A program made the translations under genes and the position numbers. From assembly GCA_026417415.1 (NCBI GenBank), contig JAOADG010000027.1:1-11513 (forward strand): a stretch of 11,513 nt of DNA, in the 5' to 3' direction. Positions 3,066 to 10,004 of the stretch are shown here, in pieces. The notes beneath the pieces are model-generated. The model was not told the origin of the DNA and did no database searches. It saw only the letters and a program-made list of their open reading frames with translations. Each line of letters begins with the position of its first letter. Position 1 is the stretch's first letter. The DNA is from a bacterium (lineage in GTDB: Bacteria > Electryoneota > JAOADG01).

Positions 3066-6000
3066 ATGTTTAAAGATCCTTTATCTACACTTTCTAGTGA
3101 TTTAGAGCGTTTAGCAGATTTATTATCTCCATCAGCAAAAACAAAAATTGAATTTTTAGAAGGTGAGCGACGTGAAGTTGCAATTCTTTTTATTGATATT
3201 CACGGATTTTCTACCCTATCAGAAAAAATTGATCATGAACAACTCCATAAGTTAATGTTTGGAGTGATGAAAACCTTGGCAGGTGTAATTGAGCAGCATG
3301 GTGGGTACGTGGATAAATTTGAAGGTGACTTGATTATGGCACTGTTCGGAGCCCAAATGGCTTCTGAAAATGACAGTATTCGTGCGGTCCATTGTGGTAT
3401 GAAATTGTTTGAAGTGTTAGAAGAAATCAATAAACTCCTAAAATCTAAAATGGATATTCAACTTGGAGCAAGGATTGGCATCAATTTTGGTTGGGTTACT
3501 GTAGCACCGGATCCAAGCGGGCATCTAACTGCGATGGGTGATGATGTGAATTTGGCAGCAAGGTTAGAGTCCACCGCAGAAGTCAACACCATTCAAGTAT
3601 CCGAAAGTGTAGTGAAAGAGTGTGGAGAATACTTTGAATGGAAGGACTTGGGATACATTAAGGTCAAAGGGAAATCTGAAGCGGTTCATGTGTTTCGCCC
3701 AATCGGCTTTGGAAACACTTCATTAGAGCGATGGAGAAGATCGCAAGTAGTAGAAACCTTACCATTAACCGGGCGAGATACAGAACTCAATCTACTTATT
3801 CAGTATTGGCAAAACGCAATTTCTAAAGAGCGCAGTTCAACAGAAGGGTGGTATCAACCGGAATTCATTGAAATATCTGGGGATGCAGGGATTGGAAAAT
3901 CGCGCTTGATGCACGAATTAGAAAAATTTGTCACCAATGTAATTCCTGATACCATTGTCTTAAAAGGAAATACCACCTATATTGCACAACCTCCATTCTG
4001 GCTGTGGACTACCTTGCTGAAAAAATTTTTCTTTACCAGTAGCACCGAAACCAATCAGCATCAATTTGAGAGTGGAATAGAAGCATTAACTTCAATCTTG
4101 CCTTCTGAACAAAAAGAAATGCTTTACAAAAACATTCCTTATCTCCAAAATTTGGTTTCCTTGCCGATTCAATCCAAAACGTTGCAAGCGTTGGATGATA
4201 AAACCTTGCGTGCTGAAACTATCTTCGTGATTCGGAACTTCTTAAAATTTTTAGCATTCCATAAACCACTGTTGGTGTTGTTGGAAGATTTGCATTGGCT
4301 TGATAGTGGTTCACATGAAGCCCTTGAGTTTTCGTTGAAGAATCTTCATTCACGTCATCCCATTGTATTTGTGGGTACTTGCCGTAGCGATTATGATGAT
4401 GGAAGACCGGTTCAACTTTTTGCAGAGTCCAGCGGAATTATTCCCAAGGTAGTGAAAATGAAACCTTTGTTGGATGAGGATGCAGAAGCATTGGCGAAGG
4501 TTTTATTGTTCACTTATGATAAGACAGCATATAGAATTGATGATGAAGTGTTGCAGAAATTGGTTCGTTATTCACAAGGAAACCCCTTTTATTTAGAAGA
4601 GTTGTCTTTGGATTGGTTAGAATCAGGATTGCTGGAGAACCAAAATGGAATCTTTCGTTTGGTGCGTCCAGTCAGCGATTCAAAAGTTCCGACCAGCATC
4701 GCCAGTTTGTTGCGTGCGCGAATGGATCGTCTGAATAAAGAAGAAAGACAAGCATTGCAAGAGTGTTCCGTTTTAGGAATCGAGTTCACTCAATTGTTAT
4801 TTAAACATGTTCGCGAGAAAATAGAAGAGCATGACACAGGTGACCTGTATCTTAAAGAACTGGAATTGCGAAGTTTTATCAAGAGTTTACTTTCCGTAAA
4901 AGACATCTTGTATCGTTTTCGTTTGACCACTACCAGAAATGTTGCCTACGAAACCATTCTTATTCACAATCGTGCGATTTTACATCGCTTGACAGCAGAA
5001 GCATTAGAAGAGTTAGCAGGGGATCAAACGGAACTATTGAGTGGTTTAATGTCTTTTCATTTTGAGTTAGGTAACCAGATGGATAAAGCCATCTACTATG
5101 GTTTAATGGATTTGAAGCGACAAAAGCGAACCTTTCAAAATAAAGAAGGATACGAGTTGGCAAAGCGTCTCCTTCAACTATTGCAGGACTATAAAGAAGA
5201 ATGTACGGATTGGGAAGAACGATATTATGCCACGTTACTTCTCTATGAGGCAATTTGTGATACCTTAGGAAAACGGCAAGAACAGCGTTCTGCATTGGAT
5301 GAACTGGTACAGTTTACCGAGGGCTTAAACAATAGTTACAAATTGGTAGAAGTTTGGTTACGTGATGGAAACTACCATTATATCACAGCGAACTATGATA
5401 CCGCAAAACAAATCTATCTTAAAGCATTAGAATTGGCTCAACATGAGAAATACCAAGAATGGATTGCAGCCATTTATGGAAATCTTGGTCTGCTCTTTTT
5501 GGTGTCCAAAGAGTACGACAAAGCAGAACAAAATTTAGTCAATAGCATTGTATTGTATCATCGGTTAGGGGATAAGAGAAACGAAGCCATATTTTTAATG
5601 AACTTGGCAGGGCTATATCATCTACAAAAGCGATTGGATTTAGCAACCGAAAAACTCCAGCTAGCATTAGAAAAGTTTACCCTATTAGGCAATACACGAG
5701 CAATTGCCACCACTACAGCCAACTTTGCAGTGTTGCTTGAAAATCAAGGCCAATTGCAAGATGCCATATTGAAAAATGAGAGTGCGATTACGGTATTTAG
5801 AGAGATTGGTGATTTCAAAGGTGAAGCCATCGCTACCGCCAATTTGGGCTACTGCCAATGGAAAGTCAATGAGATATGGCAAGCCGAGTTGAATCTGAAA
5901 AAAGCAATTCAGATGCTCCAAGAAATCCAAGATTACTCTACACTTTCGCGAACCTATGTGAATTTAGCCGAAGTGTACGAACAAACACAACGGAAAAAAG

Positions 6001-6092
6001 AGTTGGCAGAAATTGTAAAAGAGGCACAACCCATTTGGGAAAAATTGAAAAAAACAGATGTGCTTACAAAATACAAAACCTTTATGGAATAA
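3066..6092 (+). CDS. Class III nucleotide cyclase - AAA ATPase - TPR fusion protein
   Basis: 1008 residues, cytoplasmic (no signal peptide or membrane segment), start supported by AGAGG 5 nt upstream. Residues about 36-213 form a class III cyclase domain: metal-binding D44 (LFIDIHGFS) and D88 (KFEGD), base-contacting K84 and T155 (LTAMGDD), and N162 and R166 (VNLAARLE). All six expected positions are filled, and the Lys/Thr pair fits an ATP-using (cAMP-forming) enzyme. Residues about 235-440 are a P-loop ATPase of the AAA_16/STAND-like type: Walker A GDAGIGKS (272-279) and Walker B VLLED (404-408). A helical region follows, then TPR-type repeats at about 760-985. The cyclase-ATPase-TPR layout is well known in many bacteria, where the C-terminal parts are thought to sense protein partners or control activity; the signal here is unknown. 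The gene overlaps the next by 35 nt, implying co-expression. Confidence 0.9.
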   Translation: MFKDPLSTLSSDLERLADLLSPSAKTKIEFLEGERREVAILFIDIHGFSTLSEKIDHEQLHKLMFGVMKTLAGVIEQHGGYVDKFEGDLIMALFGAQMASENDSIRAVHCGMKLFEVLEEINKLLKSKMDIQLGARIGINFGWVTVAPDPSGHLTAMGDDVNLAARLESTAEVNTIQVSESVVKECGEYFEWKDLGYIKVKGKSEAVHVFRPIGFGNTSLERWRRSQVVETLPLTGRDTELNLLIQYWQNAISKERSSTEGWYQPEFIEISGDAGIGKSRLMHELEKFVTNVIPDTIVLKGNTTYIAQPPFWLWTTLLKKFFFTSSTETNQHQFESGIEALTSILPSEQKEMLYKNIPYLQNLVSLPIQSKTLQALDDKTLRAETIFVIRNFLKFLAFHKPLLVLLEDLHWLDSGSHEALEFSLKNLHSRHPIVFVGTCRSDYDDGRPVQLFAESSGIIPKVVKMKPLLDEDAEALAKVLLFTYDKTAYRIDDEVLQKLVRYSQGNPFYLEELSLDWLESGLLENQNGIFRLVRPVSDSKVPTSIASLLRARMDRLNKEERQALQECSVLGIEFTQLLFKHVREKIEEHDTGDLYLKELELRSFIKSLLSVKDILYRFRLTTTRNVAYETILIHNRAILHRLTAEALEELAGDQTELLSGLMSFHFELGNQMDKAIYYGLMDLKRQKRTFQNKEGYELAKRLLQLLQDYKEECTDWEERYYATLLLYEAICDTLGKRQEQRSALDELVQFTEGLNNSYKLVEVWLRDGNYHYITANYDTAKQIYLKALELAQHEKYQEWIAAIYGNLGLLFLVSKEYDKAEQNLVNSIVLYHRLGDKRNEAIFLMNLAGLYHLQKRLDLATEKLQLALEKFTLLGNTRAIATTTANFAVLLENQGQLQDAILKNESAITVFREIGDFKGEAIATANLGYCQWKVNEIWQAELNLKKAIQMLQEIQDYSTLSRTYVNLAEVYEQTQRKKELAEIVKEAQPIWEKLKKTDVLTKYKTFME

Positions 6093-7335
6093 CCTGCTGA
6101 TCCACTGGTTTGGGTTAGCCATACTCCTGTTTTTTGTAAGTAACCATGTGGTTGCTAAAACCCATTTTCTTCAAACGGAACATTCGCTGCAACAAATTTT
6201 ACAGTTTGTCCAACCCAATGATACGATCAGATTATCCAAAGGGGAGTGGAAATTAATCCCTTCTGAATGGGTCGATTCGTTATGTGGTAATTGTTTGGAT
6301 GCTAAAGTAATGTCCAAGACCACCGTAGGATTAAAAATCACTACGCCGCTTACCATTCTTGGGGTTCATTGGGACTCTACCATCCTTAGAATGAACGCTG
6401 GATATGGAATATTCATTCACGCAGGAGGAACAGTCCATTTAGAAAACCTTGGAATCACAGGTGGGGTGCGCTCGGCTGATGGGAATGCAACGGATGCAGC
6501 AATTGTGGTAAGGAACTCAGAGGTGGTGATTAAAAATTGTCGTATCTTTAAGAACAATCATCGCATAGATACGCTGGTCGTAGGTGTTGCAGGTGTTGTC
6601 GGACGAGAAGGGAGCAAAATCGTGATGGAACAATGCACCATTGAAGAGACCAGTTGGGATGGCATTGCTTTGTACCGTGGTGCATCCTTAATTGCGAAGG
6701 ATCTACTCATTCAACAGGGACGAGGTGCAGGGATTGGGATAACTTGGGATGCAAATGCTTGGATTGAAAGAGTGACTGTACGTTCATTTTGGAAAGGGAT
6801 TGGTACCTTTGGAAATTCCGTAGCAACGGTGAAAAATAGCGTAATTCGGGAAAATTTAGGTTGGGGATTAATTGCTACAGGAACGTCCACACTCGTTGCA
6901 GAAAACAATGCGATAGTAAAAAACGGAAATTGTGGAGTTGGGGTATGGTCTGATTCTTGTACAATGAAACTATCCAATAACCTCATCGGCGAAAATGGCT
7001 GGAAAACCCAATGGGTATGCCCTTGTGTTGGGTTATGGAGAGTAGGTCGTGGAACGGTTCATTTGCGGTACAACCTGTTTTGGTTAAACGACTCAGGAGC
7101 CACAAAAGATGTGGATTGGGATATTACCCAAGATGATGCAGTCCCAGATTCTATACCCAATTGGGTTCAAGTGGGTAATCGCATTCTATTGGAAAGTCCA
7201 CTTGATGAACAAAATAATCCCAAACCCGATCAGTGGGAATGGCTTAAAAATGGTGGAGATCCAATGTTAGTCAATCGTGATGGAACAAGAAGCGGTTACG
7301 GCCCTTGGTTCGGTTCGTCAGCACCTACCCCTTGA
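6058..7335 (+). CDS. Secreted right-handed parallel beta-helix protein
   Basis: 425 residues. The start at 6058 is the only ATG in this frame upstream of the hydrophobic segment and lies inside the cyclase gene (35-nt overlap, +1 frame). No good Shine-Dalgarno precedes it, so translation is probably coupled. The signal peptide has K7, a hydrophobic core at about 13-28 and probable cleavage after VVA (33). Residues about 95-345 are pectin-lyase-like coils of 22-24 residues, with strand triplets such as VVIKNCRIFKNN (156-167) and AENNAIVKNG (281-290). A C-terminal DGTRSGYGPWFG (408-419) recalls the conserved end of many secreted beta-helix proteins. Eight cysteines remain after the signal peptide (76, 79, 161, 193, 292, 301, 321, 323), including CGNC and CPC, compatible with disulphides. 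No lyase or hydrolase catalytic set is evident, so the ligand is unknown. The end overlaps the opposite-strand Clp-like gene by 40 nt. Confidence 0.8.
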   Translation: MCLQNTKPLWNNLLIHWFGLAILLFFVSNHVVAKTHFLQTEHSLQQILQFVQPNDTIRLSKGEWKLIPSEWVDSLCGNCLDAKVMSKTTVGLKITTPLTILGVHWDSTILRMNAGYGIFIHAGGTVHLENLGITGGVRSADGNATDAAIVVRNSEVVIKNCRIFKNNHRIDTLVVGVAGVVGREGSKIVMEQCTIEETSWDGIALYRGASLIAKDLLIQQGRGAGIGITWDANAWIERVTVRSFWKGIGTFGNSVATVKNSVIRENLGWGLIATGTSTLVAENNAIVKNGNCGVGVWSDSCTMKLSNNLIGENGWKTQWVCPCVGLWRVGRGTVHLRYNLFWLNDSGATKDVDWDITQDDAVPDSIPNWVQVGNRILLESPLDEQNNPKPDQWEWLKNGGDPMLVNRDGTRSGYGPWFGSSAPTP

Positions 7336-9539
7336 GTACAGCCATCCTCTTTCAATTGGACTTTTAGTACATCGTTTTCTAACACGATTCGAAGTTTGTA
7401 TTTGGAAAGGTTTGGGTTTGATTTTTTGACTTGGAGAATTTTAGGTAAGATTTCCTCATCAAACAAATCCTTCCAAATGTTAGGGTGTTTTCCTTTCTTG
7501 AGAATCCATTCAATAACAGTTTCATCCCATTCAAGATAGAAATTGCGCAAAGCCATTTTTTGATTGATAGTGGATAGAAAACGATTCTTAATCCATTCTG
7601 AAGTTTGCCATTCTTTAGGAACTGAACCGACTACGTGATCCACGCCAAGTTGAGCCAATTCTAAGAGAAAAGGTTGAACAATATAGAACTCTTCTTCTGT
7701 AGCAAGGTTTTTGCGAAAACCGTATTGTTTCTTTACTTCTATTTCAATATTGGACATGGTGAGTACCACGATTGCTTCACTGAGAATGATTTTTTGGTTA
7801 TTTGCTAAAGTAAAATATCCTTCTATGAGTGCATCTGAAATAAGATGAACAATTTTAGGGTGTGCATGATCAATATCTGTAAATTTTATCACACACCAAG
7901 GGTTTTGTATGACTTGGTGTAAAGGTAGTGTTGAATCAAACCCAACATAACCGTGTGGTGAACCAATCAATTGAGAAAGGGAATTGGGTTCGGTCAATTG
8001 GGACAAATCAATGGTAATCACTCGGTCTCGATTTTCAAACAAAGTTTCTGCTACCACTTCACAAAAGATATCAGCCAAATCTTTGGCTTCGCTATAAAAA
8101 ATCACTGATAAGTTTGGTTCGTTGGGTTGTAAATCGTATCGTTCAATGGTGGCGGACAAACGATTGATAATCTTATTTAAATCGTCTTCTTTGAGAATCT
8201 TGAGTTCATTGAGTTTTTCCCGAAGTTTTTCTACTTGATGAGCCATTTGAACGGGCATTCCAATAAATTCTTTGGATGCCTGAGCTGCAAGATCCACAGT
8301 TAGTTTCTTCTGATTGTTTGATAAAGCATAACTTACACTCTCTTCCAGTAAATCAAGTGCTTTGTCTGGGAATGAGCGATCTTGTAAATAAATATCAGCG
8401 TAATCGTATAATTTCTCAAAAATGTCGTCTTGAATTTCAATTGCAAAGGGTCCTTCGGAATAGTGTTGTTCGGAAAATCGCTTCATTACTTGGATGGTTC
8501 CCGCTTTATCCAAAGAATGAAGTCGCAAAATATGAAACCGTCGCTCAAATGCTTTATCGGGTTGAATGTACCGATTATATTCATCATCCGTTGTTGCACC
8601 AATCACTAAAATATCATCATCAGCTAAGGCAGGTTTTAGGATATTAGAGAGGTCAAGATTTCGTTGTGAACCTGCTCCAATCAGCATATGGAGTTCATCA
8701 ATGAAAAGGATGATGTTGGGCTTTTTTGCTTCGCGAAGTATCGCTTCCATTCTCCCTTCAATTTCACCGAGTAAAGAGGCATTAGATAAAATGGAACTGG
8801 TATAGATTTGATAGATCTGATAATTTTTTAATGCAATTGGCGCTTCATCCGTAGTTAAAAAATGGGCAAAACCTCGTACCAATTCAGTTTTTCCTACACC
8901 CGCAGGTCCCACGATTAAAGGATTTCGTTTGCGTTGATGAAGTAAAATCCTTGCTAACCGTTTGATTTCTAACTCTCTACCGGTAAAGCGTTGGAATTCA
9001 CCAGCCAGAGCTTTACTTGTTAAATTTTCACCATAGCGAAGAAGTACGGTATTTAGAGGATGATTAGTGCCAACGGAAGTGGGAGTGGTGGATGCATTGG
9101 CTACTTGATTTTCCTTTTTCATTTTGTATTTAGGTTTTTGTGGACTATTTGTGTCGGAACGGGATTGATTAGCATTTTCTGTATCAGTTGGTTGGATCGG
9201 ATTTTGGCGATAGTAACGGATTAGAATTTTGATGTAATGGCTCTCAAATACGCAATCAGAGCCATTTTCTTTTGCATATTGATAAGCTTCATCAAGTAGT
9301 TGTGAAAGATCTACGGTAGCACCAAAGTTCCCTTCAGCTAAGGCCTGTTTGAGTGTTTTAGTGAGTGTAGTCACATCATTAATTTCATTTTTTATTAACC
9401 CACCATTCCTTTCTACGGCTGCTAATAGATAGTGGTAGATCCCCACTTGATCGTGACCGTAATGTTTGGCACATTTCTGAGCATTTTGAATGAGTGTTCT
9501 CACACCCATCATTACAAAATCTTGATATTCTGTAGGCAT
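7296..9539 (-). CDS. ClpA-like AAA+ protein with degenerate second ATPase domain
   Basis: 747 residues, no signal peptide. Residues about 6-110 are a Clp N-domain with two repeats (MMGVRTLIQNAQ..., DLSQLLDEAYQYAKE...). A polar Asn/Ser/Thr/Lys linker spans about 111-160. The D1 ATPase (about 180-425) is intact: Walker A GPAGVGKT (211-218), Walker B ILFIDE (277-282), sensor GATTDDEY (314-321) and Arg fingers R333/R334; but its pore loop reads ASLLGEIE (254-261), with no tyrosine. A short linker follows, without the long ClpB coiled-coil M-domain. D2 (about 475-730) aligns in order with ClpA, but Walker A has become YSEAKDLA (482-489), the Walker B acidic pair has become TD (554-555), and the NR finger and GAR sensor-2 motifs are missing. 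The GYVG pore loop (530-533) is kept. It follows the small YbjN-like gene after 15 nt. Probably an unfoldase or remodelling ATPase; partner and client unknown. No clpP is in view. Confidence 0.85.
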   Translation of the reverse strand: MPTEYQDFVMMGVRTLIQNAQKCAKHYGHDQVGIYHYLLAAVERNGGLIKNEINDVTTLTKTLKQALAEGNFGATVDLSQLLDEAYQYAKENGSDCVFESHYIKILIRYYRQNPIQPTDTENANQSRSDTNSPQKPKYKMKKENQVANASTTPTSVGTNHPLNTVLLRYGENLTSKALAGEFQRFTGRELEIKRLARILLHQRKRNPLIVGPAGVGKTELVRGFAHFLTTDEAPIALKNYQIYQIYTSSILSNASLLGEIEGRMEAILREAKKPNIILFIDELHMLIGAGSQRNLDLSNILKPALADDDILVIGATTDDEYNRYIQPDKAFERRFHILRLHSLDKAGTIQVMKRFSEQHYSEGPFAIEIQDDIFEKLYDYADIYLQDRSFPDKALDLLEESVSYALSNNQKKLTVDLAAQASKEFIGMPVQMAHQVEKLREKLNELKILKEDDLNKIINRLSATIERYDLQPNEPNLSVIFYSEAKDLADIFCEVVAETLFENRDRVITIDLSQLTEPNSLSQLIGSPHGYVGFDSTLPLHQVIQNPWCVIKFTDIDHAHPKIVHLISDALIEGYFTLANNQKIILSEAIVVLTMSNIEIEVKKQYGFRKNLATEEEFYIVQPFLLELAQLGVDHVVGSVPKEWQTSEWIKNRFLSTINQKMALRNFYLEWDETVIEWILKKGKHPNIWKDLFDEEILPKILQVKKSNPNLSKYKLRIVLENDVLKVQLKEDGCTQGVGADEPNQGP

Positions 9540-9554
9540 AGGCGAATTTCCGTT

Positions 9555-10004
9555 TTATTCGTTTCCAAATGCGTGCATTCCGCCAAATTCGTGAATAATG
9601 AGATCGTCTAAATCATCAGCGGTTTTGGTTAAAGTATGCAATATCTTACTAAATTCATCTTGGGAGCATGTCTCAGCAATTAAACAATGGTTAAGTGTAA
9701 TCCAATCATCTTTGTCTATCGCTAACGCACCAATCTGAATAACAGAATTGATTCTTAGTAATTTTTTCAGTACTTCATTGGATAATTCTATATCTTTCAC
9801 AAGCGGGGCTATAAAAAGAATCAGTATCTTTTCATCTATAGTTTCGTCAAGAGGCGTAACGATTACATGTAAAAACGATGAGCCACGTGGAACGATAAAG
9901 ACAGGATTGTCTTCAGAGGCCAAAAATTGTTTGCCCAATTCTTCTTTTAGATAACGCTGTACGGTTTGATACACGGATTCATGGGTGGGACCTACAAAAT
10001 GCAT
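9555..10004 (-). CDS. YbjN / type III secretion chaperone-like small protein
   Basis: 149 residues, start ATG at 10004 with AGGGAG (10010-10015) 5 nt upstream. No signal peptide; two cysteines (107, 113). It follows the pattern of the CesT/YbjN chaperone-like fold: an N-terminal helix (HESVYQTVQRYLKEEL), antiparallel strands (PVFIVPRGSSFLHVIVTP, 34-51; KILILFIAPLV, 59-69), the LL-x-x-N motif (KKLLRINSV, 80-88), a strand pair (ALAIDKDDWITLNHCL, 93-108) and an acidic C-terminal helix ending in FGG (TADDLDDLIIHEFGG, 128-142). Proteins of this fold bind peptides or unfolded segments of partners, often as dimers. The assignment rests on pattern recognition without a search. It sits 15 nt upstream of the Clp-like gene on the same strand, so a client-binding or adaptor role for that ATPase is a reasonable inference. 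No secretion-system genes are in the window. Confidence 0.7.
   Translation of the reverse strand: MHFVGPTHESVYQTVQRYLKEELGKQFLASEDNPVFIVPRGSSFLHVIVTPLDETIDEKILILFIAPLVKDIELSNEVLKKLLRINSVIQIGALAIDKDDWITLNHCLIAETCSQDEFSKILHTLTKTADDLDDLIIHEFGGMHAFGNE

Follow-up and report, generated by a model that had tools for sequence, protein, structure and literature searches.

What does a small chaperone-like protein do when its gene lies directly beside that of a ClpA-like AAA+ unfoldase, and what kind of machine might the two form? This question is raised by a stretch of 11,513 nucleotides from an Electryoneota bacterium (assembly GCA_026417415.1, contig JAOADG010000027.1), the whole of which we call the window. 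On its reverse strand, an open reading frame (ORF) of 149 residues at 9555-10004, which encodes a TY-Chap1 protein (hereafter TY), is followed by one of 747 residues at 7296-9539, with 15 nucleotides separating the TY stop from the Clp start. This confirms the positions, common strand and spacing given in an initial annotation made from the sequence alone, which had proposed a dedicated adaptor of YbjN/CesT type and a divergent Clp acting without ClpP. We found that the large protein belongs to an apparently undescribed clade of Clps in which, judging by the motifs, ATP hydrolysis and the grip on the substrate seem to sit in different rings. Together with TY it looks like an undescribed chaperone-fed system for protein remodeling or degradation.

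A divergent Clp with a live first ring and a dead second ring

The 747-residue protein shares the N-D1-D2 order and the fold of ClpA and ClpC: Foldseek retrieves ClpC, ClpA and ClpB structures, ClpC structures also match by sequence, and the NCBIfam models for ClpA, ClpV and ClpB all match. The best of these is ClpA (TIGR02639) at 283 bits; since this is far under the equivalog cut-off of 993 bits, the protein is best described as ClpA-like and divergent, just as the initial annotation had it. Like ClpA, the family has no long M domain. The N domain (residues 1-116; 9192-9539) is matched by the Pfam Clp_N model at 20.1 bits, slightly below its cut-off of 20.7.

Unfoldases such as ClpA and ClpC, which feed ClpP, belong to Hsp100 class I and have two active AAA+ modules. 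In the window protein the D1 motifs are complete, comprising the Walker A motif GPAGVGKT (residues 211-218; 8886-8909), the Walker B motif FIDE (279-282; 8694-8705) and the arginine finger FERRF. In D2, by contrast, the Walker A position is occupied by SEAKDLAD (483-490; 8070-8093), which is dead, and the Walker B position by VIKFTD (550-555; 7875-7892), without the DE pair. The pore loops show the opposite distribution: at the D1 pore-1 position, NASLLG (253-258; 8766-8783), the aromatic residue is replaced by leucine, whereas D2 has kept its pore-1 loop as GYVGF (530-534; 7938-7952), comparable to the GYVGY of ClpA and ClpC.

The same pattern runs through the family, as seen when 34 members were aligned with 13 canonical controls, the latter being only a sample of Clps. 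The D1 Walker A motif is intact in all 32 members covering that region, and the D1 Walker B motif and arginine finger are retained. The D2 Walker A signature GxxGxGKT, on the other hand, is present in 13/13 controls and 0/34 members; the D2 Walker B DE pair, found in controls, is missing from all 34 members, and the D2 arginine finger, again present in controls, is almost always lost. Thus D1 has the functional Walker A/B motifs and arginine finger expected of an Hsp100 class I protein, and D2 lacks the corresponding functional set, in which sensor 1 is also counted. Conversely, at the D1 pore-1 position all 13 controls have Y or F and 31 of 32 members have lost the aromatic, while the D2 pore-1 tyrosine is retained in 34 of 34. 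The same residues came out when the sequences were aligned separately to a profile of the canonical proteins. As D1 combines an intact ATPase with a lost pore aromatic and D2 a dead ATPase with a kept pore tyrosine, engine and grip would be assigned to D1 and D2, respectively. The initial annotation was correct in calling the machine Clp-like, but had overlooked both the dead D2 ATPase and the lost D1 aromatic. About two-thirds of the set was retrieved with a search pattern containing GYVG, so the retention of the D2 tyrosine partly reflects how members were selected; the tyrosine is nevertheless kept in all 12 members that came from protein or profile searches (the window, G053, G239, G337 and eight Armatimonadota), and the bias leaves the loss of the D1 aromatic and the ATPase losses unaffected.

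Distribution, phylogeny and selection

The family is patchily distributed. When 118 genomes were searched with the window proteins, a single clear relative of the Clp emerged (G053, 342 bits), whose TY directly adjoins, and a two-sequence profile run against 386 diverse genomes added G239, with TY directly downstream of the Clp, and G337, other Clps scoring 365 bits or less. The DNA pattern GYVG[YF]xxxL[PA][LI]H matched 37 loci in a set of 84,980 named species genomes: about two dozen of these have a family Clp at about 500-1200 bits (canonical Clps reach about 490 or less), two further loci carry family D2 fragments and the remainder are chance matches. Profile searches in Armatimonadota contributed 9 additional genomes (17 of 291 positive), and members were present in 3 of 301 sampled Chloroflexota genomes. 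In total, 36 genomes encode a family Clp, with named hosts including Chloroflexota, Armatimonadota, Abditibacteriales, Eisenbacteria, Acidobacteriota, Bacillota (Pelotomaculum) and a cyanobacterium (Aphanocapsa). A single-protein scan of genome contigs and viral contigs with the window Clp, itself a long branch, returned no relative. Plasmid searches yielded mostly ClpB/TssH-type and other Clp ATPases and no match to TY, and nothing obviously of the family turned up in phage searches; two viral pattern matches (L071 and L072) were rejected, having no Clp ORF with the motifs. In Aphanocapsa (L143:5827-8225) the family Clp is split across two ORFs, either by a frameshift or by a true gene split. 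Near-identical family Clps with common neighbors occur in two Bacillota assemblies (L092 and L097, one of them Pelotomaculum), which points to the same lineage or to a mis-binned contig.

In a maximum-likelihood tree the family forms a single clade (support 99) to which the controls do not belong; L147 is sister to the other members, which are grouped with support 100. ClpI of Actinomycetota is likewise a distinct Clp class defined by bioinformatics (PMC10149685); compared by its description only, it was set aside, D2 being dead in the present family. For the close pair L164/L165, D1 has a nonsynonymous divergence (dN) of 0.046 and D2 one of 0.071, the proportion of synonymous differences (pS) being 0.77. 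Given this low D2 dN while synonymous sites are near saturation, the comparison indicates that D2 is under purifying selection and no relic, a reading based on one close pair and on motif conservation across the clade.

These data bear on whether the Clp is merely a decaying paralog with the TY gene as an incidental neighbor. Such decay would account for the loss of the D2 motifs and the D1 pore aromatic, the patchy distribution and the long branch of the window member. It does not fit with D1 catalytic motifs that are intact in every member covering them, with the selection on D2, with identical losses and retentions across the whole clade or with the recurrent adjacency described below, and we consider its probability close to negligible.

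The small protein has the TY fold

The 149-residue protein matches the Pfam family TY-Chap1 (PF22551) at 56.9 bits (gathering cut-off 27; E 2.2e-15) and CesT_Tir_1 just under the cut-off; the Pfam YbjN model fails to detect it, PF22551 being the correct one. An AlphaFold2 model built from 14 homologs (mean predicted local distance difference test score, pLDDT, 92.5) has the topology helix-3 strands-helix-2 strands-helix, and Foldseek matches it to a Synechococcus protein (2plg), SycH, ExsC, CesT, SicP, YbjN and DR_1245. The possibility that the small protein has a fold unrelated to CesT/YbjN was examined in this way, and the TY fold was recovered instead; the assignment to the YbjN/CesT type is thus borne out by Pfam, AlphaFold2 and Foldseek alike. 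In fold and Pfam family the window protein resembles TY-Chap1, YbjN and the class I chaperones of type III secretion systems (CesT, SycH, SicP; also DR1245). It differs from them in that no secretion system is encoded in the window and its neighbor is a Clp; the known partner of DR1245 is DdrB (PMC3575483). Another TY-Chap relative (G090, L032:1348-1935), whose N-terminal tail is rich in lysine and alanine, adjoins an epoxyqueuosine-reductase-like gene, with no Clp near.

The name TY-Chap1 derives from conflict systems centered on ADP-ribosylglycohydrolases (PMC9503650), in the description of which no word starting with Clp or AAA occurs. Membership of this family and the patchy spread across phyla might suggest that the pair is itself a defense-like conflict system. 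Searches of PADLOC and PHROGs, however, gave only general Clp/AAA matches, with no strong match in PADLOC and none for TY; neighbors at the examined loci are ordinary and mostly unshared, and no ADP-ribosylglycohydrolase was found among the window genes or the scanned neighbors of relatives. A role in conflict is therefore highly improbable.

TY is recurrently paired with the Clp

TY adjoins the family Clp in 17 of the 36 genomes (G000, G053, G239, G393, G405-G415, G744 and G970), which represent several phyla. Outside the window it lies downstream of the Clp at gaps of about -17 to +29 nucleotides, so that the genes mostly overlap or are tightly spaced. Taking strong TYs as those of at least 187 bits, 15 of the 27 genomes considered whole have one, each beside the family Clp. 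The 386 diverse genomes contain only three TY matches at this level, all beside a family Clp, and in 291 Armatimonadota genomes the same holds for three of three. In the surveyed genomes the strong TY subfamily thus occurs only where the family Clp is also present, whereas the weaker TYs (48-122 bits) of other genomes stand alone, no Clp being encoded within 1.5 kb of them. G410 encodes the Clp-type TY a second time (L124:1495-1947), as a solo gene with no Clp nearby. The initial annotation had allowed that homologs of the two genes might rarely be neighbors; adjacency in 17 of 36 genomes, with about half lacking a TY neighbor, speaks for a conserved pairing that is not due to chance.

Relatives outside the core set show comparable arrangements. 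A sister-lineage Clp from Chloroflexota (G426, L147:999-3738) has a half-decayed D2 (GPSDTSKN, VLVHD) and an overlapping YbjN-like gene, and is a possible evolutionary intermediate. In Armatimonadota UBA5419 (G400, L136:2839-13405) two further D2-dead Clps, which have additionally lost the D2 pore tyrosine, lie among several YbjN-like proteins. Both arrangements strengthen the link between TY and Clp. Among members without TY, Pfam scans of many neighbors revealed no substitute except in G402, where a YbjN-like gene is transcribed divergently from the Clp. No third gene is common to the loci of the pair, which are accompanied only by scattered signaling proteins and lineage-specific neighbors.

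Small proteins such as ClpS, MecA and SspB deliver clients to Clp unfoldases, sometimes via the N domain, and their folds are unrelated to the TY fold. The 149-residue protein has no Pfam or NCBIfam match to any of the three; its likeness to them would lie in client delivery and its difference in the TY (YbjN/CesT) fold. Given the conserved pairing and the restriction of strong TYs to genomes with the Clp, a dedicated adaptor or feeder is a fair inference. This part of the initial proposal stands as far as the pairing goes; binding between the two proteins is putative.

A reading of the pair, with or without ClpP

At the position of the ClpP-docking loop (IGF/IGL/LGF), where ClpA and ClpC carry [LIV]G[FL] and the ClpC-type controls IGF or LGF, all 34 members have xG[FLY] (LGF, IGF, IGL, etc.) and 28 of 34 have [LIVM]G[FL]. 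In the window Clp the tripeptide is YGF (residues 606-608; 7716-7724). ClpP is encoded in 26 of the 27 whole genomes, including that of the window. Because of this co-occurrence and the conserved docking-like loop, a proteolytic machine working with ClpP appears more likely than a non-proteolytic remodeler, and the earlier suggestion of action without ClpP finds no support. Under the latter alternative, TY would deliver assemblies that the Clp disassembles or transfers without degradation, with D2 as a passive collar. A dead D2 suggests weak pulling of a kind that fits remodeling, the more divergent L136 Clps have lost even the D2 pore tyrosine, and TY-fold proteins elsewhere are non-proteolytic chaperones. 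Nevertheless, a docking-like tripeptide that is retained throughout the family and absent from some ClpB-looking controls, along with the near-universal ClpP, leaves this ClpP-independent remodeling unlikely, albeit worth serious consideration.

We therefore favor, with about even confidence, a TY chaperone delivering clients to a D1-powered, D2-gripping Clp that would pass the chain to ClpP. TY would bind extended client segments, as class I chaperones of type III secretion systems do, and would dock on the Clp, probably at the N domain, so that the clients it delivers would be poorly folded from the outset or held in extended form. ATP hydrolysis in D1 would move the hexamer, while the pore loops of the passive D2 ring would grip the chain and forward it, most likely into ClpP. 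D2 pore loops driven by D1 would make a weak pulling device, and the TY chaperone may compensate for the lost strong motor of D2. In characterized Clp machines such as ClpA the principal motor is D2; D1 of ClpA is auxiliary and contributes greatly to recognizing substrates (PMC9663308). Compared with this, the family has lost the principal motor but kept its grip, whereas the auxiliary ring keeps its ATPase and not its grip. More specifically, and held more tentatively, at somewhat under even confidence, D1 might drive the D2 pore loops allosterically, with the TY fold, which is not known among Clp adaptors, supplying pre-unfolded clients for ClpP.

For the N domain as candidate docking site, the ratio of N to D1 identity is 0.65 in members with TY and 0.51 in those without, a difference equaled in 0 of 1000 label shuffles by a test that ignores phylogeny; the D2/D1 ratio (0.69 vs 0.70) shows no such difference. 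The better conservation of the N domain where TY is present, the overlapping or close genes in most members and the fact that the data identify no client could also be explained if TY acted on the Clp itself, as a regulator or as a chaperone of its assembly, e.g. keeping it unassembled or stabilizing its N domain. Yet half of the members do without TY, and TY-fold relatives are known to bind partner peptides; we regard regulation of this type as quite improbable.

Several observations weigh against the favored feeding of a D2-gripping, ClpP-linked Clp by TY. Nineteen of the 36 members have no TY neighbor and the remaining 12 of the 27 whole genomes have no strong TY anywhere (two have weak matches), so TY is not obligatory. 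Only in the window does TY lie upstream of the Clp, i.e. in reversed gene order, and the window Clp is a long branch (2.42) of uncertain position in the tree. Besides the neglect of phylogeny in the shuffle test, TY distances follow those of N, D1 and D2 about equally, and the N domain is therefore not singled out as the docking site. The window tripeptide YGF deviates from [LIV]G[FL] at its first residue, and this loop is flexible in the model of the window Clp (pLDDT <50). Lastly, some members have an aromatic residue (W, Y) one position past the lost D1 pore position, so that D1 may still grip.

Other genes of the window

A right-handed beta-helix gene on the forward strand (6058-7335) meets the Clp gene tail to tail, the ends of the two sharing 40 nucleotides (7296-7335). 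In the product of the preceding forward-strand gene (3066-6092), a class III adenylate/guanylate cyclase is joined to an AAA_16 domain and tetratricopeptide repeats. On the reverse strand, an ORF of 659 residues (878-2857) has a signal-like start and many repeats of the G[DN]D/GNDxY type, with no Pfam match above cut-off.

Implications

NSF and Pex1/Pex6 are double-ring AAA+ proteins in which one ring is the motor and the other is largely passive, and in these the ring that grips the substrate is the one that hydrolyzes. The family Clp departs from them in that its hydrolyzing D1 has lost the pore aromatic, while the dead D2 has kept its tyrosine. Among the open-license papers searched we found none joining YbjN and ClpA, and those listed for inactive-D2 or pseudo-ATPase Clps did not contain these terms, an absence that is weak evidence. 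A clade with a dead D2 that kept its loop and a live D1 that lost its aromatic would test whether hydrolysis and grip need the same AAA+ ring, a question central to hand-over-hand models of translocation. A TY/CesT-fold partner would, if true, be a new class of Clp adaptor, linking the folds of secretion chaperones to ATP-driven proteolysis, and part of the YbjN/TY-Chap superfamily, itself poorly understood, would gain a role that can be tested.
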